Of a stretch of 64,000 bases of DNA, positions 48,375 to 64,000 are shown one piece after another. Position numbers and translations under genes: made by a program. A model generated the notes under the pieces. It was given only the letters and a program-made list of their open reading frames with translations. It did not search any database and was not told the origin of the DNA. How positions within the stretch are numbered: the stretch's first letter is position 1; every line of letters begins with the position of its first letter. This DNA comes from Candidatus Altimarinota bacterium (GTDB lineage: Bacteria > Patescibacteriota > Gracilibacteria > BD1-5 > UBA2023): NCBI GenBank assembly GCA_028714815.1, contig JAQTLR010000001.1:62001-126000 (forward strand), in the 5' to 3' direction.

Positions 48375-50147
48375 TTACTTTACGCTAAATCCGAATCCCA
48401 TACCGGAATGGAGATGTTCCGTGATGTGACAGTGCGCCATCCAACTTCCCGGATTGGACATGTCGACGAGGATATCGACCGACTGTCCGGCCGGTACGAG
48501 TACCGTATCCTTCCAGACTGGATTATCATTTTTTGTTCCGTTCTCATTCAGAATAATGAATCGTTGTCCGTGAATATGGAATGGGTGCTGCATCGGGTGC
48601 ATCGTATTCGCATCATTGTTGATGTGTATTTTTACGAGATCACCCTTCTTGAATGTCCAGTCGATATCGCCGTTTACTTTGTTCGTGTCGGTATCGGTAA
48701 TCTGCCAAGTGGTGGTTTTGCTATTGGAAACGGCATTTTCAACACCCATAGTATCTTCCCATTCGAGTCCATCCTTTGCAACTGGTTCATCCGTCATTCC
48801 GCCCATCATATTCGACATACCGTTCGCTCCCATCATACTCAGAGAAAGGGCAATATTCTTATCTGCTTTTTTCGCATAATACGAATCGAATTTGCTCATC
48901 TCGGCAACTATGTCCGCATTGGTTTTCAATATTCCGAATGACGCCGAATTATCCTTGTCCGTTGTTCCTGAGATATTTACCGCCCCGATCGTATAGGTCT
49001 TGTCGGGAGTCGTATGTGTGATCGTGTACTTTCCCGAAGTTGGGAAGTATGCTTCGACCACATAACGCTCTGCCGGAGCGATAATAACGGAATCTATGAA
49101 TGTTTCTTTCTCATACTTTCCGGCATCCGATCCGACGAGTTTCAGCTTCGCTCCCGGAATGGAGAGGTTAAATGTGCGAGCGCTTGCCGCATTCGTGAAA
49201 TAGAATCTGATGACATCCCCTTTCTTCGCGTCGAGTGAGTATGTATCGGTTCCGTTTACAAGAAGAGTATTCCCGTACCGTCCCATGATGGCGTGATCGG
49301 TAAAATCTTGTGGAAACGATGCGGTTTGTCCGTTATTTATAAGGATATCACTCAGCGTCAAATACTCCTCATGATTAACAGGACTGGTGAATCCGGAAGC
49401 CGTGTCGGAGACGATATAATTTCCGTAGAGCCCCATTCACTGACCGATGTCGTCCCGGAGATGCGGATGATACCAGAAAGCTCCCGCATCCGGGAAGTTA
49501 ATAGTATATTCTACAACATTACCGGATGGTAAGGAAACCGGAGTGAGACCGCCCTGTTCCGGAGGAACCCCGTCAAAGGCCTGTGCCACGCGGACTCAGT
49601 GGGAATGGAGCGTGGTATTGAAGCCAGCGATAGTGTTTTTCAATCGAATCTTTATCGTTGCTCCTTTCGGTGCGCGGATGACTGGTCCGGGAACCGATCC
49701 GTTATACGCGTACATAGCGACTTCGTTCCCCGCGATCATTTTCTTTACGCGGGAAACGGTAATATCGTATGCATCCCCGTTTTTGAGATCGACAATCGGA
49801 GTCGGAGTTGCTTCGGGAAGCGATGATACACTTTTTTCTGAAACCAGAGCCCTGACTGCTTGAAGTTTCTGCCCGATCGATTCTTTCAGCGACCCCATAA
49901 GCATTCCATCGATCTTTTGCATGATCATACCGAGACGAGGTTGATCATTCCCGATCGAGTCTAATTTACTCTGAACGAACGATTCTTCCTGTACGGTCAA
50001 TATTCTTGCAGACATCATTCCTGATGCAGTGCCATTCATTATATTCCCAGATGTCATCATATGGGAAGTATCTCCCATTGCAGAAGCAAGAGGAGAGAGT
50101 GTGATTACTCATACGAGCAATACGGAAACGATTGTAGATTTTTTCAT
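48375..50147 (-). CDS. Multicopper oxidase (secreted, second paralogue)
   Basis: This 590-residue enzyme has a signal peptide (MKKSTIVSVLLVGVITLSPLASA, one Gly being UGA) and the four copper motifs HSHG, FWYHPHL, HPFHIHGQ and HCHITEHLHSGM. The Gly of HSHG is encoded by UGA (49596-49598), so the active site itself needs the altered code. It carries a Met-rich N-terminal region after the signal and a Met-rich loop (MMGANGMSNMMGG) before domain 3. It is clearly related to the oxidase at 44051, so the pair may come from duplication or separate acquisition. Stop TAA. Confidence 0.92.
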
Positions 50148-50241
50148 AGTGTTGTAGGTTAAATAATGGTAATAATAGAAATATGAATGTACTGGTTGAG
50201 AACCCATTCAAAGGAAGGTATCCTTATAATCAATCCTGATA

Positions 50242-53200
50242 TTATTTGCTTATGCTTCCGGTACTGGTAGGTATTGCGACACTACCAGTATTACTTACAA
50301 TAGCCCCCGTATTACTGCTCGCAGTAACCGTTCTCGGCACTTCTTTCACGATATTCTCTGCGAACTTTTTCGGAACGAAATGCATCATATCGAGCATAGT
50401 GTAGGTTTTTTTCGGCAATCCCATGACAATGAGATTGCTTCCGTCCTCGTCGTCGAGCTTATCCTGTAATTTCGTAAATTCCTTGGCTTGAAGCATTTCC
50501 TCCGCGTCCGTATACCCTATGTAGACCGGAAGGTAGGTTTTCCCGTCCAATGTGAATACTGTTTTCTTCGGATTGATGAGGGAACTGAATTGCGTTGGGA
50601 TATTCGTCGCGTCGAACAGGTAGTAGAAACTGAGTTCTCCGAGCGGAGATTCCGTGATGACGAGGTCTTCTCCGAGTTTGACAGCATCGAAGGTCTCTTT
50701 GTTCATAATATGTGTATCGTCGAGAAACGTGTTGGTCGGTTCGAGGATTCCGGTTATCCGTACTTTCGGTACTCCGAAGAAATCGGAAAGTTCCGACCCA
50801 ACACCCTTTATAAGACCTTCCCGGATCATCATGGAGGCTTCGGTGTACCCGAGGACTACGCCGTTGTTGCTAAAATCTGCTGTTCCATTCTTGATTCTAA
50901 GTTCGTTCGGAAGCGAACTTGCGTCCGTCATGACCTTCGGAAATCCACCCTTGTCGAACCCGATCTTCACGCGAGTGGACGCGAGGTAATCGTGGATATC
51001 GCTGACGAGTCCCGGTGAATGGGCCGTATATGACTGTGTGGCATTGGTTACTCCGGAGAATTGCGAGAATTCCCAGAATACGAATACAAAGAATGCGGTC
51101 ATAAGCACCGGGGCGATCTTCGAGAGGACGTTCATGCGTTTCGGATGGAAGTTTTTGAGGAGGAGCGAATTGGTTACAACCGATACCGAAGAGAGCGCCA
51201 TTGCGAGTCCGGCAAGTTCTGGCTTCAATACCAACCCAAGGGAAGCGAGCGCTCCGGCGGCAACTGGAATCCCAAGAACGTTGTAGAACAGTGCAAAGAA
51301 CATGTTTTGCTTGATCTTCCCGACCGTTTCTTTACTGAGTTTTATTGCCGTAAGTACGTCGTTCAGATCGTTTTTCATGATGATCATCTGCCCTGACTCC
51401 ATAGCAACGTCCGCTCCACTTCCCATGGCGATTCCGAGATCCGCCTGAACGAGAGCGGGAGAATCGTTGATTCCGTCCCCGACCATCGCGACCGTGTATC
51501 CTTCCTGTTGGAGTTTCTTCACTTCGAGCGCTTTATTTTCGGGAAGGACTTCCGCGAGGATGTTCTCGATCCCGAGCTGCCGTCCGATCGCCTGCGCCGT
51601 GCGAAGGTTATCCCCGGTGATCATGTAGACCTTGATTCCGAGTTTTTTGAGCCTTTCGAGGGCTTCTAATGAAGTCGTCTTAACTGTATCGGCAACAGCA
51701 ATGAGACCGATGACATTGTTCGTGTCGGCGAGCATCATGACCGTCTTTCCTTCACTCTCCATGTTCTCGATATAGGCTTGAACGTTGAGAATAATGTTGT
51801 TTTCTGCGAGAAGTTTTCTCGTTCCGAGTAAGTAGGTGTTTCCATTCACTACTCCTTTGACTCACTTTCCAGGAACTGCCTCAAAATTCTCAACGAGGTA
51901 ATTCATGGCTCGATTTTCTTCACCGTATTTCACAATAGCTTCCGCAAGCGGATGTTCGGACTTCTTTTCGAGCGACATGGCGAGCGAGAGAATTTCGGAT
52001 TCCGAATGAGATCCGAGGCTGACAATGTTCGTTACCTTCGGTTTTCCCTCGGTGAGCGTTCCCGTCTTATCGAATACGATGGCATTGACTCGACAAGCAA
52101 CTTCAAGCGGTTCTCCTCCTTTAATGAGGATTCCGTTCTGCGCCCCCTTTCCGGTTCCGACCATGATGGCAGTCGGGGTTGCAAGTCCGAGCGCACACGG
52201 ACATGCGATGACGATGACGGCCGCGAAATAGAGGAGTGCGACCGAGAATGCCGCGCCGAGGAGGAAGTACCAGACCGCGAACGTGATAAGAGCGATGACG
52301 ATGACAGTCGGAACGAAGTACGCGGAAATCGTATCCGCGACACCTTGGATGGGCGCTTTCGATCACTGGGCCTCCTCGATCAGACGAATGATTCCGGCAA
52401 GCGCGGTTTCCTCTCCGAGTTTCGTTGCTCTGAATTCGAAGCTTCCGAGTTTGTTCATAGTCCCGGCGAACACCTTCGACTCGATGGACTTCTCGACCGG
52501 CATGCTTTCTCCGGTGAGCATGGATTCGTCGATGCTCGAATGTCCTTCGGTAATCTCTCCGTCCACGGGGATTTGCTCTCCCGGACGCACAACGATGATA
52601 TCGCCGAACGCGACGGAATCGATCGCGATGTCCACGATGTTCCCGCCACGTTTTACGCGGGCGGTTTTCGGTGCGAGTCCCATGAGTTTTTCGATCGCTT
52701 CGGAAGTTTTCCCCTTCGCTTTCGCTTCGAAGTACTTCCCGAGTGTTACGAACGTCACGAGGAACGCCGCCACCTCGAAGTAGATGTTCGGAATCTTCAT
52801 TCCTTGGAGTCCGATGATGGAACCGGTTTCCGTCAGGTAGGTGAAATAGGAATAGAGACTGTAAATGTATGCTACGAGCGTCCCGATCGAAATGAGCGAG
52901 AACATATTGAACGTCCGCATTTTAAGCGCCGACCATGCCCCGAAGAAATAGTCTTTCCCGATGATGAAAAGCACCGGGGTGGCGAGGAAGAATGAAATGA
53001 GCGCCGAGTACGGCATGACCGCTTTCTCAAACGGCAATCCCGGAACGAAGTCGTATACCATGAACGCCACCATCGGGAGCGACAGAATTCCTCCCGCGAG
53101 GAACTTATGGAACCAAGACTTCAATTCCTTTTTTCGTTTGTCGGTTTCCGAAATCTTGCTTTCGCCCTGTGCCTTCGCCGTATAGCCAGCATCCAAGACC

Positions 53201-53700
53201 GCTTTTTCGAGGTCTCCGATATTGGTTTTCTTCGGATCGAACTTGATTCGTGCCTTTTCGGAAGCGAAATTCACGTTCGCTTCTTCTACTCAGGAAACGT
53301 GCCTGAGTGATTTTTCGATAAGGGAACTGCAACTCGTACAGTGCATCCCCTCGATGTTCAGAATCGCGATGGAGGTATCGGACGCCTTCGGAGCAGGGTG
53401 GTGCGGAGTTTCTGTAACCTCGACCGGTTCCGCTTGCGTTATCGATTGCTCCGTAGCGATCGGTTCTGGAAGCCTTTCTTCTTCCTCACTCTCCATGATC
53501 GCTTCGTATTCGGCGTCATCGCGGATCGCTTTGGCGATGGCTTCTCCGGAAACGCCCGAATCCGTTTCGAGATAGAGTTTTCTTTGTTCCAGATCGAATG
53601 CTTTCGATTCGATCCCTGAGATGTTTTTTAGTGTCATGCCGATGAGTTTGATGCACGATTCGCAGTGGATCGTCGGCAGGCTGATGGTTATCTTCTTCAT
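50242..53700 (-). CDS. copA: Cu(+)-exporting P1B-type ATPase with C-terminal extension
   Basis: This 1152-residue protein has two heavy-metal domains (IHCESC, Cys 13/16; MHCTSC, Cys 121/124). Between and around them lies an acidic linker. The P-type core has the CPC helix (IACPCALG), DKTGT with phospho-Asp about D544, [15 protein letters not shown] and [10 protein letters not shown], and membrane helices in the P1B order. It pumps Cu(I) out of the cytoplasm. A usual CopA ends near residue 857; this one has about 295 more residues: an extra hydrophobic helix ([15 protein letters not shown]) and a mostly beta domain, ending in a Thr/Ser/Val-rich tail. An extra helix would place that domain outside. 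UGA at 53290, 52363 and 51862 is Gly. Stop TAA. Confidence 0.93.
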
Positions 53701-53729
53701 AAATTTTGAGTTATATAGATAAAGTGGGA

Positions 53730-53957
53730 TTATTCGTCTTTTGTGACTTTTTTGATCTTGAAAGAGGTTTCTTCTTCGAGATGAACAATAATATTCTCCT
53801 CGGTTATCTGCGCCTCGTCATAATCGCATTGGATCCGTTTCGTTCCGACATCGATCTGTACATTGTCGATCGTCCGGAGATCGCCGAATGCCATGCGAAG
53901 AATTTTCTTGCATGCTTCGCAGTGTATTTCCGGAGCGGAGAGCAGTAGTGTTTTCAT
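53730..53957 (-). CDS. Heavy-metal-associated domain copper chaperone
   Basis: This 75-residue protein is a single HMA domain: PEIHCEACKKIL supplies the C-x-x-C metal site (CEAC), then the usual beta-alpha-beta pattern. It is a CopZ-like cytoplasmic carrier that would deliver Cu(I) to CopA, whose gene starts 29 nt downstream. The tail is Lys-rich. It has no in-frame UGA. Stop TAA. Confidence 0.9.
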   Translation of the reverse strand: MKTLLLSAPEIHCEACKKILRMAFGDLRTIDNVQIDVGTKRIQCDYDEAQITEENIIVHLEEETSFKIKKVTKDE

Positions 53958-53992
53958 AGTGATTTTGTTATGATGTAAATGGTTGAGAGATT

Positions 53993-54379
53993 TTACTTGG
54001 CCGTGTTATCGACGATGTTTCGAATAGTTGCGTCAAGTCATTCGAATTTTTCGTTCAGCTCAGTGTTCGGAAAGAATTGAGAGAGGAAGGCGGGTCGTAT
54101 GGCCGAGACGACGGTTTTCCCGTCTTTGACGTAAACGCTCAATCTGCAAGGCAACCAAAGACTTATATTCATATCGGCATTCAGGGCTTCGTAGGCGAGT
54201 TTGGCATTGCAGAACTCGATTATTTTGAGAGGTCCTCTCTCGTATCATTTTTCGCTCAGAGTCTGGTGAACATCGTGGATATGCAGTACCCGCATGCCCG
54301 CCGTCGCTATTGCTTCTTGTGCGCTTTGTATGGCCACATCGAAGGATTTTTCGGTTGTTACCGTATAATCGAATTTCAT
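53993..54379 (-). CDS. DUF302 family protein
   Basis: This 128-residue protein was hidden by two UGA codons. It matches the DUF302 layout: FDYTVTTEKSFDVAIQSAQE, LHIHDVHQTLSEKG, then IIEFCNAKLAYEALNAD and the LWLPCRLSVYVKDGKT strand pair. DUF302 proteins occur beside metal and redox genes; their biochemistry is unsettled, although a conserved Cys pair could bind metal or haem. It lies 35 nt before the copper chaperone in the operon. Stop TAA at 53993-53995. Confidence 0.85.
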
Positions 54380-54416
54380 GGTTTGGTATGTTAGGAATTA
54401 CAATACTGTTCCGCTT

Positions 54417-56222
54417 TTAATTTACATTGACGACAAACTTTCCCCGATACATCCCCATGGAGCAGGAAAACGGTATTTCCCCGCTTGCCGGTGCGACGAA
54501 TTCTATAACGTTCTCGCCTGATTGGAGCGATTTGGATATTCCGAGCGATGGAACGATGATCTGACTGGAACAAGAATACGGATCATTGCTGGTTATGATC
54601 CAACGGATCTTCTTGCCTGCGTCTATTGAAAGATTGTTCGGACTATATCCGGAACCATCCTGAGTCATCCGTACTTCCTGAACTTTAAGATTCGCCGTAT
54701 CTGCCGGTTGTGGTACTGTTGTGTTCGTGTTTGGTTGTACAGTTGGCCTATTTCATCCCATCATGGAGCATCCTCCGCCTGATCCTCCTCCACCACCGCA
54801 TCCTCCTCAGTTTCCTCCCATCATACTGCATCCGCCACCACGTACAGGAGTGTTTTGTGTCTGAGTGCTTGCAACATTACTGGTTGTTGAAACTTGCTTT
54901 CCATTTGAGTTGATTACGAACTTCCCCCGGTACATCCCCATGGAGCAGGAGAACGGTATTTCCCCGCTTGCCGGAGCAACAAACTCGATCACATTCTCTC
55001 CCGGTTGGAGGGATTTTGATATCCCGAGCGCCGGAACGACGATCTGACTCGCACAAGTATACGGATTCGTACTGGTAATAATCCAACGGATTTTTTTACC
55101 GGCATCAATGGAAATTGTATTCGGAGAATATCCGAAATCGCCTTGGGTCATTCGTACTTCTTGGACTTCGAGGTTCGCCGCGTCTATTTTTTGAGTACCT
55201 GTTCCAGAGGGAAGACTGAGTGAAAGAAGGGCATATCCATTATTGAAGTTAAAAACTCCAAGAATAAGAACAATAACCCCGGTGAACGTAAAGAATTTTT
55301 TCAGCCACTCGCCTTTGAGTACCGCCGAAACAAAACCAATAGAGAGAAGTCCCGGGACGGTTCCGAGAGCAAAAAGCATCATCGCGAGCGCTCCGGCCAC
55401 AAAACTTCCCGTACTTACGGCATACGCTTGCATAGCAAGCGTGAATCCGCAAGGCAAAAAGAAGGTTGCCGCTCAGGTGCTGAGAATCGATGTTTTCGAT
55501 GTTCCCTCGCCATCAACGTTCTGACCGAGAAATTTTGGTAATTTCAGGGAAAAACTTCCGAGTCTTGGGGAGAGATTCGTGAGATTGAGTCCGAGAAGGA
55601 GCATAACGACACCGACCAATGCTGTCGTAACTCAGAGGAAGAGGCTCGAAAAGTGGATAATCGATCCGAAGAGTCAGAGAATTCCCCCAAGAAGTCCGAA
55701 TCCGAGAATTCGCCCGAGATGGAAGTAGATGTGTGGAGAGAAACGTGTGGAAGTCGAGCTATTCGCATGTTCTTTGTTCCATTTCGCACTAATTCCGAGT
55801 ACAAGTCACCCGATGAGTGCCATACAGCTTGAAACTCCGGCCGTGAGCCCTATGAGGAAAGCGACTCCAAGCGTGGGCGACGAAGTGCTTCAAATGCTTC
55901 CAAAAGACCATCCGCTCGAACTCGCTACGATGTAGAGAATGAAAATGATTATTCCGGCAATCAGCACGTTCGAATAGTCTTCAATGTTCGTGCTGATCCA
56001 TGGCAGTTTTTTTGCCATTCAGATGCCATAACCGTTTTTCTTGATGATCGATTCGATCTGATCCGTGTTCGGCTCCGTTCCTTCGTATCCGATCTCGACA
56101 CGTCATTCCTTCTCAAATGCTTCAACTTTTGCGACGTTCGGTACTTTCTTGATAGCCTTTTCCAAGAGTATTTCACAGGACGTACAGTGCATCCCGGAGA
56201 CTGGAATAGTAATTTTTTTCAT
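54417..56222 (-). CDS. HMA - SafE/TauE-like membrane - double cupredoxin fusion
   Basis: This 601-residue fusion was broken by many UGA codons. Order: an HMA domain (MHCTSCEILLEKAIKK, residues 1-70); a six- or seven-helix membrane domain of the SafE/DsbD-like (UreH-type) group with CMALIG and LPCGFTLAMQAY; then two cupredoxin-like domains, nearly the same in sequence (DAGKKIRWIITS, then GEIPFSCSMGMYRGKFV) and joined by Gly/Cys/Met-rich linkers (GGGCSMMG). The close match of the two cupredoxins shows a recent internal duplication; each keeps CSMGMYRG with Cys and Met ligands. It would take up, move and bind copper at the membrane. Part of the Gly linker is itself UGA. Stop TAA. Confidence 0.85.
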
Positions 56223-56274
56223 AGATTTTTTTATTAGATAAATAAAGCGGGCACAAAAAATCCCCTAAAACTGA

Positions 56275-56307
56275 CAAGGATGATTTTTCGACGCGAAAAA
56301 TCCCTTG
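56275..56307. promoter_or_regulatory. Hairpin-forming inverted repeat inside the copper operon
   Basis: CAAGG-at-GATTTTTCG (56275-56290) pairs with CGAAAAATC-CCTTG (56294-56307) around ACG, with a 2-nt bulge. It sits in the longest gap of the operon (109 nt), between the secreted-protein gene and the HMA-SafE fusion. It may be an RNA stabiliser, a processing site or an operator. Confidence 0.5.
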
Positions 56308-56331
56308 AACAATAAGGAGATGGGAAGATAT

Positions 56332-56781
56332 TTAATCGAGGCGCTTTATGATTCCAACAAGACTGGAATAGCTTTGTTTATCAGGAGGCGGCGCGGTGGA
56401 AGGATGGCTATCGTAAGAGTTTGCGAGTGACTTAAAGTCCGTATCGGTGGGAACGGGATACGTTGTCGCTCAAAAGGACTTGACGGTCTTCTCGGAAGCT
56501 CATCGTTCCCACATCCCGATTTTTGAATGGGCTGTGTCTGAATTGCAACAACTCATTCCAGGAGAAGGTGTAGTGTTTTGGTGGTTGCAGGTCAAATCTA
56601 CTGAACCCGATTCGTCTTGAAATTCTGATGATGGCATCACTCAGGATGTCGAAACCATTTCGGAATACCCTGTGTCCCCAGAAGCGCCCATATCCATGCT
56701 CATCGGCGAAAACGCCAAAACATTCCCGCATATTGGCAGGGAGAAGGTTAGGGCGAGAAGGATGACGACGAATCGCTTCAT
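56332..56781 (-). CDS. Secreted Cys/Met/His protein of the copper operon
   Basis: This 149-residue protein has a signal peptide (MKRFVVILLALTFSLPICG) and a hydrophilic mature part with Met-rich start (SPMSMDMGASG) and a Cys cluster (LTCNHQNTTPSPGMSCCNSD). The C-terminal half is Pro/Ser/Thr-rich and probably unstructured. The second gene of the operon, 17 nt after CsoR, it is a good candidate for a small periplasmic copper-binding protein. UGA codons at 56641, 56500 and 56470 are Gly. I know no named family. Stop TAA. Confidence 0.65.
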
Positions 56782-56798
56782 TTGATAGAAGTAAAGGA

Positions 56799-57077
56799 CT
56801 AATTTCTTTGGGTTACACTCCATATCTGCATAACTTCCTCGGAAAACTCCGAGATTGCTTTCGGATCACCGGAACTAATTTTAGAAACTCAACAGGTTTG
56901 AAGATGATTTTCAAGAAGAGTCGCGTTTGCATTTCGCAGAAGTCCGATAGTGGCATTTATCTGTTGTGCAATATCAGCACAATACGATCCTTCGGTGAGC
57001 ATCTTTTCGATCTTATCAAGCATGCCTCGGGATTTTTTAACTCCCAAGAGTATTTTATCACGTTTCTCAGAAATCAT
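56799..57077 (-). CDS. csoR: CsoR-family copper-sensing repressor
   Basis: This 92-residue all-helical protein matches the CsoR/RcnR family: KILLGVKKSRGMLDKIEKML, then SYCADIAQQINATIGLLR and ATLLENHLQTC. The Cys-x-x-...His-x-x-x-Cys metal set (C in SYCADI, H and C in ENHLQTC) is that of Cu(I) sensors. CsoR represses copper-resistance genes and leaves the DNA when Cu(I) binds. It heads the minus-strand operon, so it should control itself and eleven downstream genes. The UGA at 56889-56891 after LQTC is Gly; the extra 30 residues complete the usual length. Start ATG 57075-57077, stop TAG 56799-56801. Confidence 0.9.
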
Positions 57078-57235: not shown

Positions 57236-58516
57236 ATGATGTCACTATTGCAGACCATTCAATCCCTCCCATGATCCGTATTGCACCACTGGTGATACTG
57301 GATTGTTTTTGCTGCATCCGTTCTGGAAGCATCTCCGATATTCGGAACATTCGTCCCCGGACACACGATTGTTATTTTGTGAGGATTTCTCGCGAAACTG
57401 GGTATTCTTGATCTGTGAGATGTTCTGGTCATTTCCGCTTTATGAGCCATCCTTGGGGATTTCATCGGATATTTCATTGGGAGGAAATATGGTCACGATT
57501 TCATCGTGAAATATGGAAAGTATGTCTTTTTCAAAGAAGCATACTTTGAGAAAACCAAACGGCTTATCGCTCGTCATGCCGGAAAAACGATCATCGTAGG
57601 TCGTTTTAATCCGATTATGAGGGCATTCGTACCGTTTGTCTCCGGGTCATCTGGAATACATATCCTGAAATTTTCTCTTTACAACGTCATCGGTGGAGTC
57701 AGTTGGGCAATGTCCTCCGTCTTTATTGGTTTCATATTCGGGCAGAGTTACGAAATTGTCGCGAAATATATCGGAAGGTTCGTATCCGTTGCACTGATCG
57801 TAAGTATTATACTTGTTTTCTTTTACCGATTCATAAACAAGAGGAAACATATCTTCCTGAAATACCGACCGTACCTTCTGACCCTCAATATCGCATCTCT
57901 GTATCTTTTCTCCAAGATGTTGGAAGATGTTCTTGACAATGAACTCATTACCAAATGGGATATATGGGTACATCTCCATATTATATCGCTTTGGAATCCC
58001 CTATTGAATAGGGTGATGATTCCCGTATCGGATATAGGAAGTCCCATGGTTCTCGGGATGCTCTCGGTTTCGCTTTGTGCTTTCTTCGTCCACAAGAAAC
58101 GGTGGCAGGATTTCTCGGTGGTATCCACCAGTATGCTCGGAGGATGGATTTTGGAATACGTGATCAAAATACTCGTTCAAAGACCGAGACCGGAAGGTGC
58201 GTTGATAGCGATTCCTCTCGATTACAGTTTCCCGAGTGCCCATGCGACGATGGCGGTTATTTTCTTTTCACTCCTCATCTACCTATTCAAGGATACGATG
58301 CGAAACATGGTAATGAAGATCGTTTTCATTGCCTCTTGCATTACCTGATTCCTGCTTGTGGGATTCAGCAGGATATATCTCAATGTCCATTGGATCAGTG
58401 ATGTGTTTGCTGGAATCGGACTTGGGATGTTCTGGCTCACATTTACGCTACTAGCAATAAAAATTACGAAATCATTTCTACGAAAAAAGAAAGAAACAAA
58501 ACTACAAAAGCGGTAA
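57236..58516 (+). CDS. DedA-PAP2 fusion membrane protein
   Basis: This 426-residue protein joins two membrane domains. The N-terminal ~200 residues are DedA/SNARE-associated (EASPIFGTFVPGHTIVI, GDFIGYFIGRKYG and GRFNPIMRAFVPFVSG), a lipid-scramblase/flippase fold. The C-terminal ~200 residues are a PAP2 phosphatase with the three motifs KILVQRPRP, PSAHAT and SRIYLNVHWISD. Fusions like this are expected to move and dephosphorylate undecaprenyl or other phospholipids. Seven or more UGA codons in the first 80 residues and one at 58346-58348 are Gly. Start ATG 57236 or 57239. It is divergent from csoR. Stop TAA. Confidence 0.88.
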
Positions 58517-58529
58517 ATACTATTCGTCA

Positions 58530-58561
58530 CTTACATTCCACTTACAATCATTCCATATACT
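58530..58561 (+). promoter_or_regulatory. CTTACA direct-repeat promoter, site 1 (PAP2/two-component operon)
   Basis: CTTACA occurs at 58530-58535 and 58541-58546 (11-bp period), followed after exactly 9 nt by TATACT (58556-58561). There is no -35 box other than the second repeat. This is the geometry of an OmpR/PhoB-type activated promoter. The same layout recurs at 61116 and 61817. Confidence 0.75.
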
Positions 58562-58604
58562 ACGAATATTTGCTCGTATAACCCATAACCATCAAACCAT
58601 CAGC

Positions 58605-59198
58605 ATGTTCGCTCAACTCTTTGAACTTAACAAACAACTTTTCCTTACCCTGAATCAACTCGGAGACATCGGCATTATTCGCAACATTGTCTCCATATTC
58701 GCCGATGCCCCGATATTTCTCATCCCGCTCTTTCTCGTCGGTTTTTGGCTGTACTATACGAAGCAAAAAGACATTTCTGGGAAGGAACGATTACTCTCTG
58801 TATTTTACGCGACCGTTCTCGCCATCGTTTTTAATATCGTCATTCAAAAATTCGTCCATATCGACCGTCCCGCGGAGTTCGCGAGAAGTGCTGGGCATTT
58901 CCTTTTGAATCACATCCCAGATGCGTCATTCCCTTCGGATCATGCTTCGGTATGAGTCGCGTTTATCACCGCGCTCATGCTGTTCGGATATAAGACCATT
59001 GGATATATCGTGATTCCATTTTTTGTCATAATGTTCCTTTCTCGTGTGATTTGAGGCGTTCATTGGCCGCTTGATATCCTCGGAGGCACGATTGTTGGAG
59101 TTGTATCGGGATTCGCTATTGCCGCCATAAAAGAAAATCCATATATTGGAAAATGTAATCGTTTCATTATCGACACGGCACACTATTTCAAATTATAA
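58605..59198 (+). CDS. PAP2-family phosphatase (undecaprenyl-diphosphatase-like)
   Basis: This 197-residue membrane protein has the PAP2 motifs KFVHIDRPAEFA, PSDHAS and SRVIGGVHWPLD, in which the second Gly (59052-59054) is UGA, and four or five helices. It would remove phosphate from a lipid carrier, probably undecaprenyl diphosphate in wall synthesis. It is the first gene of an operon with the response regulator (6 nt gap) and kinase, so the kinase may sense envelope state. Stop TAA. Confidence 0.85.
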
Positions 59199-59204
59199 CA
59201 TCTC

Positions 59205-59879
59205 ATGAAAATACTCGTCGTCGAAGACAATCTCATCCTCGCAAAAAATATCGTAAAATATCTTTCTCTTCAAGGAATGAAGGCGGAATTTGTGCGGACT
59301 GGTGAAACGGCGCTTGAAAGGGTCGTAAACGAGAACTTTTCGCTCGTTCTTCTTGATCTGAATCTTCCGGGGATCGACGGTCTCGAAGTGCTGTCGAAAA
59401 TCCGCAAGGAATTGAAAAACGCGGTCTTCGTCATCATCCTCACCTCTTCGTCCACGAGCGAGGACATTATCCATGGACTTGAACTCGGAGCGGATGATTA
59501 CATCGCGAAGCCCTTCGATTACTCCGTACTTCTTGCACGAATAAATGCCGTTGTGCGCAGAAGTGCTTCGGATAAAGGTGATAGTATAGAGATTGATGAT
59601 ATCGTTGTGGATTTTTCACAGAAAAAGGTATGGAAAGCTGATAAAGAAGTTGTGCTGTCCAGTCTGGAATTCGAACTCCTCCAATATTTCGTCCGGAATC
59701 CGTGAAAAATCCTTTCCCGATCGGACATATACGAGAATGTCTGGGGAGAATTCGAGAGTTATATGTTCTCCCGAGTGGTCGATATCTATATTGGGTACCT
59801 TCGGAAAAAACTCGGAAAGGATTTCATCCTTACAAAGAAATGAGACGGTTACTATATAAAATCATCAAATCATGGATAA
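59205..59879 (+). CDS. OmpR/PhoB-family response regulator
   Basis: This 224-residue protein has a receiver domain (VVEDNLILA, phospho-acceptor Asp51 in VLLDLNLPG, TSSS, and KPFDYSVLL) and a C-terminal winged helix (VLSSLEFELLQYFVRNP-UGA-KILSRSDIYENVW, then FSRVVDIYIGYLRKKL). Two UGA codons in the winged helix, at 59703-59705 and 59841-59843 (LTKK-G-DGYYIK), are Gly; a standard reading would lose the DNA-binding domain. It overlaps the kinase start by 8 nt. It is the likely binder of the CTTACA direct repeats. Stop TAA. Confidence 0.93.
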
Positions 59880-61062
59880 ACACTTTATCATTCTTCGAAA
59901 GAAACTCTCAATCCTCGCGACAATCGTAGTATTCCTTATTACCTTGTGCGTGGGTATCGGATTCATTTCCTACCAATACTACCGAGGATATACGGATACT
60001 TCCCAGAAGACGAAAACATATCAGGCGGAAGTCCTAAAACTCGACCTTATCGGAAAGGATCCAGAACAACTCAAAGACGATCCGAAGTTTTCGGGTCTTT
60101 TCAAGAACTTCTTTCTCCTCCTCGACACAAGCGGAAGCATCCGATACAACCATTCTCCGTATCCAAGCGAAACGGAAGGACGGGAATTGGTTCGAACACT
60201 CAAAGAATGAGGGACTTTCGAGGATGACGGGTATATGTTTGCCCGATTCCCTTTAAGCGGAAAAGAAGAGTTGGTCTCCATTGTGTTTCTTCCGTATTCG
60301 GAGGGGGAATATGCGAAAGATGTGGCGGAATACGCTGGCTTTCTCGTCTTCCTGTCCCTCCTTATCTATCTTATACTATTCCGCCTTGTCGGTCATATTC
60401 TGAAACCGATTGAAGAGAATATGAAGACAATGAAATACTTCGTGAAAGTCGCGGGGCATGAACTGAAAACTCCGCTCGCATCCATTTTAAGTAGTGTCCA
60501 ACTTCTCTCCGAAACGAAGGTTTATGATGAAGAAACGGTGCATGATATAGAGAATGAGACTAAGAAAGCAGGGGAACTCATCGAAAGTCTTTCGGAACTT
60601 TCTAGTATGAGTGAACAAACACCCAAAGAGGAAATTTACATATCGGAAATTCTCTATGAAGTCTTGAAATATCTGGATTCTCAAATCAAGAAGAAACGGC
60701 TTGAAGTGAAGATGGAACTCATAGAGGATATAACTGTATGTGCGAACAGATATTACGTATTCATCCTCATATCGAATCTTCTTTCCAATGCCGTGAAATA
60801 CAATAATATTGGAGGTAAAATATGCATAGATATTGTTAATGGAAAACTTCATATCAAGGACACTGGTATCGGTATTGGGAAGAGCCAACTCTCTAAGATA
60901 TTCGATGCTTTCTATCGTGTATCATCCCATCGTGAACGCTCCGAAGGACTTGGGCTTGGATTGGCACTCGCAAAGAAAATCGTTGTACTGTATGGATGGG
61001 ATATTGTCGTTGTTTCCGAAGAGGGGAAATGATCTGAATTCGTTGTGAAATTCAACTCTTAA
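59872..61062 (+). CDS. Sensor histidine kinase
   Basis: This 396-residue protein has two membrane helices (about residues 14-34 and 155-175) bounding an extracytoplasmic sensor region, then a HisKA domain (AGHELKTPLAS, His about 196) and an ATPase domain with N box NLLSNAVKYN, G1 DTGIGI and G2 GLGLGLALAKKI. The sensor region has no named fold that I recognise. UGA at 60208-60210 and 61030-61032 is Gly; the latter adds the final strand. It overlaps the response-regulator gene (ATGGATAA), so the two are translated together. Stop TAA. Confidence 0.93.
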
Positions 61063-61115
61063 TATCCGCATCAGGAAAGGGGTAATCGTAAATAAAAGAA
61101 AAGAAAACAGCGAAA

Positions 61116-61147
61116 CTTACAGCCGACTTACAGTAGATGAATATATT
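61116..61147 (+). promoter_or_regulatory. CTTACA direct-repeat promoter, site 2 (PepSY gene)
   Basis: CTTACA occurs at 61116-61121 and 61127-61132 (11-bp period), then 9 nt, then TATATT (61142-61147). The geometry is identical to sites 1 and 3. The PepSY gene starts 59 nt downstream. Confidence 0.75.
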
Positions 61148-61206
61148 GGTCGTGTACCTAATGCATGAGGTATAACTTTATATAATTTATCATTTACTTT
61201 TCTTTT

Positions 61207-61710
61207 ATGAAAAATACAAACATTTACAAGGTCGCTCTCATAACGGGGGCAATGGCTGCGACTGGTTTCACTTTTGCTTCATATAGCGGAGCTATTACCT
61301 TACCAACACAAAGTACTCCTTCATATTCTCAGACTGCCATTGAGCAAAAGGATATGGGAAAGGAGACGAATAGTAAGGTGGTAAAACTTCCTGTCGGAGC
61401 GATCAGTGAAGATACTGCAAAAAAAGCAGTTCTTACTGCCAATCCACAAGCACAGATTGTCGGAGTCGAGACAGAAGATGAGAATGGAACTATTGCCTAC
61501 AACATCTCCCTGAAAGATGGGACCGATGTCAAAGTTGACGCAGTCAAGGGAACTATTCTTGCAACCGATAAACGGGGGAATGAAGGAGAAATTGATTCCG
61601 ATAAGGAGACAAATGATGATTCGGTTGTTAATTCCGACAAGGAGACAAAGGATGGTTCTTCTGAATCAGCTGAATCAGCGAATGATAGTGATTCACAAAA
61701 TGAGGACTAA
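61207..61710 (+). CDS. PepSY-domain secreted protein
   Basis: This 167-residue protein has a signal peptide (ALITGAMAATGFTFA), then a PepSY domain (ISEDTAKKAVLTANPQAQ, then AYNISLKDGTDVKVDAVKG), a small inhibitor or metal/protease-associated fold found outside the membrane. The C-terminal ~50 residues are acidic low-complexity (DSDKETND repeats, Ser/Asp/Glu), likely calcium- or cation-binding. It has no in-frame UGA. It has its own CTTACA promoter and a terminator, so it is a single-gene transcript, and a natural partner of envelope sensing by the upstream kinase. Stop TAA. Confidence 0.8.
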   Translation: MKNTNIYKVALITGAMAATGFTFASYSGAITLPTQSTPSYSQTAIEQKDMGKETNSKVVKLPVGAISEDTAKKAVLTANPQAQIVGVETEDENGTIAYNISLKDGTDVKVDAVKGTILATDKRGNEGEIDSDKETNDDSVVNSDKETKDGSSESAESANDSDSQNED

Positions 61711-61757
61711 TCTGGACTCTTAATGGAAGTGAAAAACAGGACATACACTCTCGTAAA

Positions 61758-61795
61758 ATCCCGACTGTCACTAAATGAGCCGTCGGGATTTTTTT
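61758..61795 (+). terminator. Rho-independent terminator after PepSY gene
   Basis: ATCCCGAC (61758-61765) and GTCGGGAT (61782-61789) form an 8-bp stem with a 16-nt loop, followed by TTTTTT. It separates the PepSY transcript from the next promoter 20-30 nt downstream. Confidence 0.8.
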
Positions 61796-61816
61796 ATTTA
61801 CATAAAACTCGTGAAA

Positions 61817-61848
61817 CTTACACACCACTTACAAGCAATTTGTATTCT
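61817..61848 (+). promoter_or_regulatory. CTTACA direct-repeat promoter, site 3 (lipoprotein/ABC operon)
   Basis: CTTACA occurs at 61817-61822 and 61828-61833 (11-bp period), then 9 nt, then TATTCT (61843-61848). The lipoprotein ATG is 44 nt downstream. Same geometry as sites 1 and 2. Confidence 0.75.
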
Positions 61849-61892: not shown

Positions 61893-62600
61893 ATGAGAAA
61901 CTATAAAAATTTAATTCCGATATCTTTATTATTTTTCGCTATATTATGACTGGCGAGTTGCAATCAGAGTGTTGTATCAAATCCTTCTGGTAAGATTGAT
62001 ACTGGAAAAACTTCTTCTTCGACGAACAACGTCATTGTGAATAATAGCACAAATGCTACTGATTCTGATGGAGACTGAGTTCCGGACAATGCAGAAAAAT
62101 TACTTTGAACCGATCCGAACAATCCCGATACCGATGGTGATGGGCAAAATGATAAAATAGATACAAATCCGACTTTGGCTGAAAATTTCGTTCCTTCTGT
62201 GTGAATAGATGGACTGAAAATAAAGGAGATCCTCGTAGAAAATAACGTTGATCCTATTTCTAAAAAAATTGCATCCGATCATCTGGAAGTATCTTTGAAT
62301 AATACCAGTTCGAAAGAAATTAAAAACCTTACTGCTTATTATAAGCTATCTGATTTAAGCGGAAGTACAGTGCAATCCTTTATTGTTCCGCTGAAAAATT
62401 TTGTCTTAAAAGCAAATTCCACTGAAAATATACATATAGACATCAAAGACTGACTAAATCATTTCAGAGCGGATCCGAACAGTTTGTACTATCTTTCAAA
62501 AAATCCTCTGAAAGTGGATGTTACTGTCAATGCGGTATGATACAAGGCTGCAACACTCAGTATCAATAAAGATGCTGGATGAGCAGAACTTGCGGACTAA
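61893..62600 (+). CDS. Lipoprotein with thrombospondin type-3 calcium repeats
   Basis: The 235-residue frame contains about eight UGA codons. A signal peptide ends in a lipobox (LGLASC, Gly = UGA). Residues about 60-95 hold two or more calcium-binding type-3 repeats (DSDGDGVPDNAE and DTDGDGQNDKID), then a beta-rich C-terminal domain. It is the first gene of an operon with an ABC ATPase (26 nt gap) and permease, so it may be a surface or substrate-linked part of that transporter. Stop TAA. Confidence 0.75.
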
Positions 62601-62626
62601 TCTTTATTCACAAAAATATATTTCCT

Positions 62627-63355
62627 ATGAAAAAAATTATAGAGGTAAAATGATTATCAAAAGTATATGAAGATGGCTTCAAATCGCTTGATAATATCAA
62701 TTTTGATGTAATGGAAGGTGATATCTACGGTTTTTTGTGACATAATTGAGCGGGGAAAACAACAACTATAAACATACTTACCACTCTCTTAGAGCCGACA
62801 AGTTGAGATGCTTTCATTAACGGAAACGGGATCATAAAAGATTCGTTTGAGATTAAAAAAATAATCGGTTATTTGCCGGAAAACGTACAGATGTATTCGA
62901 ATTTTACCGTATATGAAAATCTGGAATATTTTGCAAAACTTTCTTGAATCGAAAAACCAAAAAAGAGAATCGATGAAGTTTTGAAATTTTTAGAAGTTGA
63001 TTATGCGGATAAGAAGGTTTGAGGATTATCAAAATGAATGAAACAACGGATCGGAATAGCCCAAGCGATCCTCCATGAACCGAAAGTACTTTTTCTGGAT
63101 GAACCAAATACCTGACTCGATCCCGTATGAATGAAACAGCTCAGAGATATAATTATCAAGTTGAACACAGAGAAGGGCATCACTATTTTTATGAATACGC
63201 ATTTATTGTCAGAAGTCTGAAAACTCTGTAATAGAGTTTGAATCCTGAATCAAGGAAAGATTATCTTTTCGTGAACGATAGAAGAATTAAAACAAAAGTA
63301 TCCAGATGATAATTCACTGGAAAATATTTACTTAAAGATAGAAAAAAATGGCTAA
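62627..63355 (+). CDS. ABC transporter ATP-binding protein
   Basis: This 242-residue cassette has Walker A FLGHNGAGKTTT, in which the first and second Gly are UGA (so the P-loop itself depends on the altered code), Q-loop region PENVQMYSNF, signature LSKGMKQR and Walker B VLFLDEPNTGLDP (an N replaces the usual T of DEPT). The H-loop is in NTHLLSE. It is of the DRA/NatA type that energises ABC-2 permeases. About twelve UGA codons interrupt it, one of the highest densities in the window. Start ATG 62627-62629; stop TAA overlaps the permease start. Confidence 0.9.
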
Positions 63356-64000
63356 TATGAAAAATATAGTTGCCCGCAAGGAGATTCTATATCTTTTGAG
63401 AGAAAAGACATTTGTGTACGCCGTCTTTATATTTATAAGCATGGCCCTATTATCAACCATAATATGATGGTCTACCCAGCATACGGTTATTACGGTATAC
63501 GATTACGCGTCTCATTTGATACAATCCCTCTGACAAGTACCGCCAGTATTGACTCTTAAATCGGAAAGCTCTCTTCTGATAGTTAAGAATATGATTATAT
63601 ATAACACCCTTATCGCCACACTTGTGGTATTGATAATGGGATATTATATTTGAATGAACGACAGGATTGCCAACGTGACGAAACTCATATTTACAAGACC
63701 TATTAAAAAAGGTGAATTATTTTTATGAAAAACGATAGCACTGTTGTACAGTTTGTTTGTGTTGATATTGGCGTCGCTTATAATTACCAATATTTCCCTC
63801 ATGATTTTTGGGGCATTTTCAATCGTGAATTTATTGAATGTGTTATGATTTTATGCCCTCTCATTTTTTTATATAGCGTGATTCTGATTCGTGGGGTTAT
63901 GATTCAGTTATATATCGAGAGACACTTGAAATGCTCTTTTATACGCTCTTATTATTTGGATAATCGTAACTTTTGTTTTACCGGAATTAAGTTCAGCACT
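63348..64000 (+). CDS. ABC-2 type permease, partial (window end)
   Basis: The frame is open from ATG 63348 (overlapping the ATPase stop by 8 nt) to the window end, 217 residues so far. It has hydrophobic helices at about residues 20-36, 83-102, 131-150, 156-172 and 176-196, and no TAA/TAG. The first helix is followed by an extracytoplasmic loop, as in ABC-2/DrrB-type permeases. It is the membrane partner of the ATPase. Many UGA codons in helices are Gly. The substrate is unknown. Confidence 0.8.

Follow-up and report, generated by a model that had tools for sequence, protein, structure and literature searches.

The locus raises a simple question: are the three CTTACA repeats that lie around a two-component system promoters controlled by the response regulator of that same system? 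The window, by which we mean the whole 64 kb stretch of DNA analyzed here, carries CTTACA-N5-CTTACA at 58530, 61116 and 61817, and each copy is followed after exactly 9 nt by a -10-like hexamer, so that the coordinates given in an earlier note on this DNA are correct. Its placing of the sites also stood when the genes were called again with genetic code 25: they precede a PAP2 phosphatase/response regulator/kinase operon, a PepSY gene and a lipoprotein/ABC transporter operon. We read them as class-II activator-dependent promoters, where the 11-bp repeat stands at the position of a -35 element and the regulator encoded at 59205, once bound to it, activates all three transcription units, and give this reading a probability of about 0.86.

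Table 1. Features of the locus, in window coordinates.
Feature	Position	Strand	Details
DedA-PAP2 fusion	57236-58516		5' of site 1, without a site of its own
Site 1 repeat	58530..58546	+	CTTACA-N5-CTTACA, 11-bp period; predicted promoter of the PAP2-regulator-kinase operon; CTTACATTCCACTTACA-atcattcca-TATACT
Site 1 -10-like hexamer	58556..58561	+	TATACT, 9 nt past the repeat
PAP2 phosphatase	58605..59198	+	PF01569 8e-15
OmpR/PhoB-type response regulator	59205..59879	+	224 aa, 2 TGA; PF00072 3.5e-27, PF00486 3.7e-20
Sensor histidine kinase	59872..61062	+	396 aa; HisKA PF00512 1.2e-10, HATPase_c PF02518 3.4e-21
Site 2 repeat	61116..61132	+	CTTACA-N5-CTTACA; predicted promoter of the PepSY gene; CTTACAGCCGACTTACA-gtagatgaa-TATATT
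Site 2 -10-like hexamer	61142..61147	+	TATATT
Exported PepSY-domain protein	61207..61710	+	167 aa; PF03413 2.4e-08
Likely intrinsic terminator	61755..61792	+	11-pair stem followed by a T run; lies past the PepSY gene and before site 3
Site 3 repeat	61817..61833	+	CTTACA-N5-CTTACA; predicted promoter of the lipoprotein/ABC operon; CTTACACACCACTTACA-agcaatttg-TATTCT
Site 3 -10-like hexamer	61843..61848	+	TATTCT
Lipoprotein with TSP3-type repeat	61893..62600	+	235 aa, 7 TGA; PF18884 4.4e-06; N-terminal lipobox
ABC transporter ATPase, DrrA/GldA-like	62624..63355	+	12 TGA; PF00005 1.5e-31; TIGR01188 7.8e-72, under cut-off
ABC-2 type permease	63348..64000	+	PF12679 7.9e-05, under cut-off; continues past the window end

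The layout is confined to this locus. The full pattern CTTACA-N5-CTTACA-N9-TANNNT has three matches in the window and none in 100 dinucleotide shuffles, and the bare repeat occurs only three times in the whole genome of 1,205,485 bases, always between 58530 and 61848, with no match for the reversed control. The random copies in coding sequence that might have been feared for such a scan are thus absent. A chance origin of the layout is excluded by these counts together with the order-wide controls described below. All six half-sites start with C and end in CA. A consensus scan found no TTGACA-like -35 element 16-18 nt upstream of the three -10 hexamers. We also discarded a sigma70 promoter with CTTACA itself as the -35: such a promoter would have a spacer of 9 or 20 nt, and TTGACA-17-TATAAT was not among the matches of the consensus scan there. 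A hexamer repeat with an 11-bp period, placed one turn before a -10 and without a consensus -35, is the layout of a class-II direct-repeat promoter.

In-frame TGA codons occur throughout the locus and are read as glycine, and gene calls require code 25, which we take to place the host genome with the Gracilibacteria/Absconditabacteria. The correct extent of the regulator, 59205-59879, is obtained under this code; the table-11 reading frame is shorter. The protein has the receiver and C-terminal winged helix (Trans_reg_C) of the OmpR/PhoB family, full-length relatives in the PDB, and the recognition helix SRVVDIYIGYLRKKL. A cognate kinase is encoded alongside, its gene overlapping the regulator gene, and the domains of both proteins are intact. 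For the PAP2 protein the nearest curated family is that of YbjG-like undecaprenyl-diphosphate phosphatases (PRK11837, 1.8e-25), with a score of 90 bits that lies below the cut-off of 229. The DedA part of the fusion upstream of site 1 is UptA-like, and this one protein could combine an undecaprenyl-phosphate flippase with a phosphatase. Divergent from the fusion gene, on the minus strand at 48375-57077, lies a copper-handling cluster with a CsoR-like repressor (PF02583) and, named by eye, a multicopper oxidase, a copper P-type ATPase and a heavy-metal-binding/cupredoxin-like membrane protein.

Because a terminator-like hairpin divides the PepSY gene from site 3, the lipoprotein/ABC operon probably needs its own promoter. 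The hairpin has a folding energy of -16.6 kcal/mol (z = -3.9), none of 200 shuffles being as stable, and is absent from a general terminator listing whose loop limit is 8. The GC content is 33-35% in the lipoprotein/ABC genes (61893-64000) compared with 42-43% across 57236-61710, and TGA encodes 7/15, 12/24 and 9/13 of the glycines in these three genes, with fewer TGA codons in 57236-61710. Although it too bears the CTTACA promoter, the ABC operon may have been acquired from a code-25 donor richer in AT.

Two modules of like plan, differing in the first base of the hexamer, coexist in this genome, since TTACA-N6-TTACA-N9-TANNNT gives exactly six matches genome-wide, three in the window and three at a paralogous two-component locus (C1:295-300 kb; L083, G000:C1:295000-303000). 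The paralogous regulator, encoded at C1:299034-299687 on the minus strand, shares 80-83% identity with the regulators of four congeners and about 48% with the window regulator. Five or more perfect 11-bp units of the TTTACATGCTT type (TTTACA) stand in tandem upstream of the paralogue's gene, possibly for the binding of several dimers or as a repeat-length switch. A second TTTACA-type site precedes a secreted protein and a third a MacA-MacB transporter set, in places that match those of the window's sites. TTTACA is also the spelling in the window's genus. In the six congeners searched, the CTTACA repeat was absent and no regulator exceeded about 48% identity to the window's, so that the window module is not common to the sampled genus.

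Further afield, the CTTACA repeat was found in 28 of the 99 relatives scanned, where pairs are often about 2.7 kb apart, near the spacing of window sites 1 and 2. The full layout including the -10 is conserved in the order: 20 of 77 genomes together carry 64 sites, and a reversed-pattern control gave none. None of 379 genomes sampled from the rest of the phylum has it. The phase is also conserved. For 76 distinct direct-repeat sites in the order, TANNNT lies exactly at offset 9 in 62 (TATAAT in 31) and is missing there in 14, while the next best offset between 0 and 39 reaches 17 sites. Most of the order's sites are intergenic, a few falling inside predicted genes, and a gene starts within 260 nt of the full layout in 58 of the 60 cases where the sequence extends far enough, at a median distance of 53-60 nt. 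By a simple heuristic, 45 of the 58 genes after the sites encode a hydrophobic N-terminus, compared with 270 of 523 background genes at the same loci. Homologues of the window's regulator gene often have a site roughly 40-70 nt before them and a second one 1.9-2.8 kb downstream, past the kinase gene and before genes for secreted proteins. The association with promoters elsewhere, on which the earlier note had made its proposal depend, is therefore seen in the relatives, 9 nt from a -10 and ahead of regulator homologues and nearby envelope-protein genes.

One relative (G048, loci L062-L082), with a genome of 2.1 Mb, carries the full layout 30 times, the -10 being TATAAT in nearly every case; these sites mostly precede exported proteins and lipoproteins, some of them in tandem gene families. 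In two others (L165 in G050 and L166 in G042) full-layout sites stand 69-70 nt before genes that resemble Fe/Mn superoxide dismutase by eye.

The repeat is coupled to the regulator family. When 60 regions upstream of regulator homologues were searched for direct repeats of period 8-15 with no spelling assumed, an exact hexamer repeat with a -10 was found almost only at period 11: the maximum is 26 regions at one register, against 0-2 at other periods, and the opposite strand gave 3-7 at period 11. The spelling of the hexamer is also concordant between the two sites of a locus when compared with shuffled pairing (p = 5e-5), for 13 loci that were chosen for likeness to CTTACA on both sides and include related loci without phylogenetic correction. 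Both sites read CATACA at L136, CATACG/CATACA at L133 and CTTACA/CATACA at L134; L067, one of the 13, is discordant, with CTTAAC/CTTAAT in its upstream site and CTTACA in the downstream one. This concerted change within loci, along with the paralogous TTTACA module, supports a coupling of the sites to the two-component system, as had been proposed. In the tree the window regulator sits on a long branch and in no starred group, and its orthology to any single relative is unsure.

The promoter type itself is known already, from CiaR, PhoP and PmrA. The CiaR box of streptococci is a direct repeat NTTAAG-N5-TTTAAG with an invariant final G (PMC3091779), and the PhoP box of architecture I in Salmonella is a (T/G)GTTTA hexamer repeat in fixed orientation with a 5-nt gap (PMC3335776); they stand 10 nt and 11-12 nt before the -10, respectively, where the exact counts depend on each author's hexamer start. 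With CiaR our sites share the direct hexamer repeat, the 5-nt gap, the 11-bp period and a TATAAT about one turn downstream (PMC3091779), and the recognition helices are similar, VVEVYVSKVRKKL in CiaR and VVDIYIGYLRKKL in the window regulator. They differ in the CTTACA hexamer and the 9-nt distance, CiaR targets include small RNAs, and CiaR belongs to another phylum. The sites do not fit a CiaR regulon, in which the final G is invariant (PMC3091779): all six half-sites end in CA. The likeness to PhoP architecture I extends to the hexamer repeat, the gap, the fixed orientation, the single helical turn and the inclusion of the system's own promoter (PMC3335776), but PhoP uses several architectures where one layout dominates here, and its hexamer is different. 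The PmrA/BasR box has CTTAAT/CTTAAG half-sites 5 bp apart that are bound head-to-tail (PMC3973317). A sister regulator clade in the order nearly matches this box with CTTAAT-N5-CTTAAT, and BasR is among the nearest solved structures to the 59205 regulator, whereas the window hexamer ends in CA and not in AT or AG. We do not regard the regulator as a PmrA (BasR) orthologue: it scores 152 bits against a cut-off of 330 for the NCBIfam PmrA model NF007928, and its sites do not fit the CTTAAG/XTTAAT box. Like the Cpx and Bae envelope stress systems, this is a two-component system with nearby exported small proteins and efflux genes as targets, and in its sister modules the targets include a helical protein that is secreted, along with a MacA-MacB set. 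The sister-module proteins look similar to the Spy/CpxP family by eye but gave no Pfam LTXXQ match, and the window target is a PepSY protein, so we did not assign the secreted targets to that family.

The paralogue makes it necessary to ask if some other regulator binds the repeats, either the TTTACA-type protein at G000:C1:299034 or an orphan, with the window's two-component system merely one of the targets. The genome holds eight matches to the window regulator; the paralogue's motif is a single base from CTTACA, which makes cross-talk between the modules possible, and one of its sites even contains a CTTACA half. However, all three CTTACA sites are at the window locus with none elsewhere in the genome, all six of their half-sites start with C where those of the paralogue start with T with one exception, and across the order the spelling of the sites tends to track the local regulator. 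We consider a different regulator unlikely. The regulator could also act as a repressor that sits beside the -10 and blocks the polymerase until a signal releases the operons. A protein 9 nt upstream of the -10 could in principle obstruct polymerase, and orientation alone is no proof of activation, but these promoters lack the consensus -35 that activity without help would require, and a fixed 9-nt phase and orientation over 62 sites fits the activator geometry of CiaR and PhoP architecture I (10 and 11-12 nt, by their authors' own counts), which makes repression decidedly improbable. We give almost no credence to the repeats being a promoter element of an alternative sigma factor: rigid spacing to the -10 is typical of such factors as well, but here the spelling differs with the linked regulator within one genome, and one promoter holds at least five tandem units. 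Two hexamers with an 11-bp period ahead of a sigma70-like TATAAT are also not known as a sigma promoter.

Returning to activation by the 59205 regulator, the promoter geometry suggests a mechanism. The phosphorylated regulator would bind as a head-to-tail dimer, with one winged-helix domain on each CTTACA, and from the -35 position would presumably hold RNA polymerase on the -10 one helical turn downstream. It would in this way raise transcription of its own PAP2-regulator-kinase operon, a positive feedback, as well as that of the exported PepSY protein and of the lipoprotein/ABC transporter operon. Binding, its dependence on phosphorylation and activation rather than repression are all predictions from sequence. 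The signal may be damage to the envelope, or stress that comes from antimicrobials or affects the undecaprenyl carrier; the label 'envelope stress' is suggested by one thing only, that the targets are envelope proteins.

Across the order, the spelling of the repeat goes along with the recognition helix: SRT-type helices are found with CA-ending repeats and SKT-type helices with AT/CT-ending ones for 44 of 47 regulators. The site used to score L106, one of the three that disagree, was a poor automatic pick, and its real site is CTTACATAATTCTTACA. The CTTAAT-N5-CTTAAT repeat of the SKT clade is widespread in the order, and CATACA repeats form a smaller set. As a recognition code (R to CA, K to AT/CT) the association is not significant, the tree yielding only 1-2 independent pairs, and because there is essentially one split in the tree we treat the pairing as a lead only. 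With this proviso, it seems somewhat probable that genomes in this order of code-25 Patescibacteria carry several parallel two-component modules of one family, every one autoregulated by an 11-bp-repeat promoter of its own and with its own local targets. Insulation between the modules would come from single bases of the repeat that change in concert (CTTACA, TTTACA, CATACA, CTTAAT) and perhaps also from the recognition helix, where SR goes with repeats ending in CA and SK with those ending in AT. In G048 the circuit would have expanded to some 30 promoters, mostly for exported proteins.

Organisms of this kind are thought to have little regulation. A search of the open literature gave neither a regulon nor a binding motif for any two-component system of Gracilibacteria, and within that scope the present regulon and motif, like this lineage's family of parallel modules, seem not to have been described before. 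The motif is an explicit and testable regulatory code for uncultured bacteria with reduced genomes, and the paralogous modules are a natural series for the divergence of specificity between regulators and their sites. With a relative of undecaprenyl-diphosphate phosphatases (the PAP2 protein), a PepSY protein and an ABC transporter among them, the targets point to a role in defence of the cell envelope.
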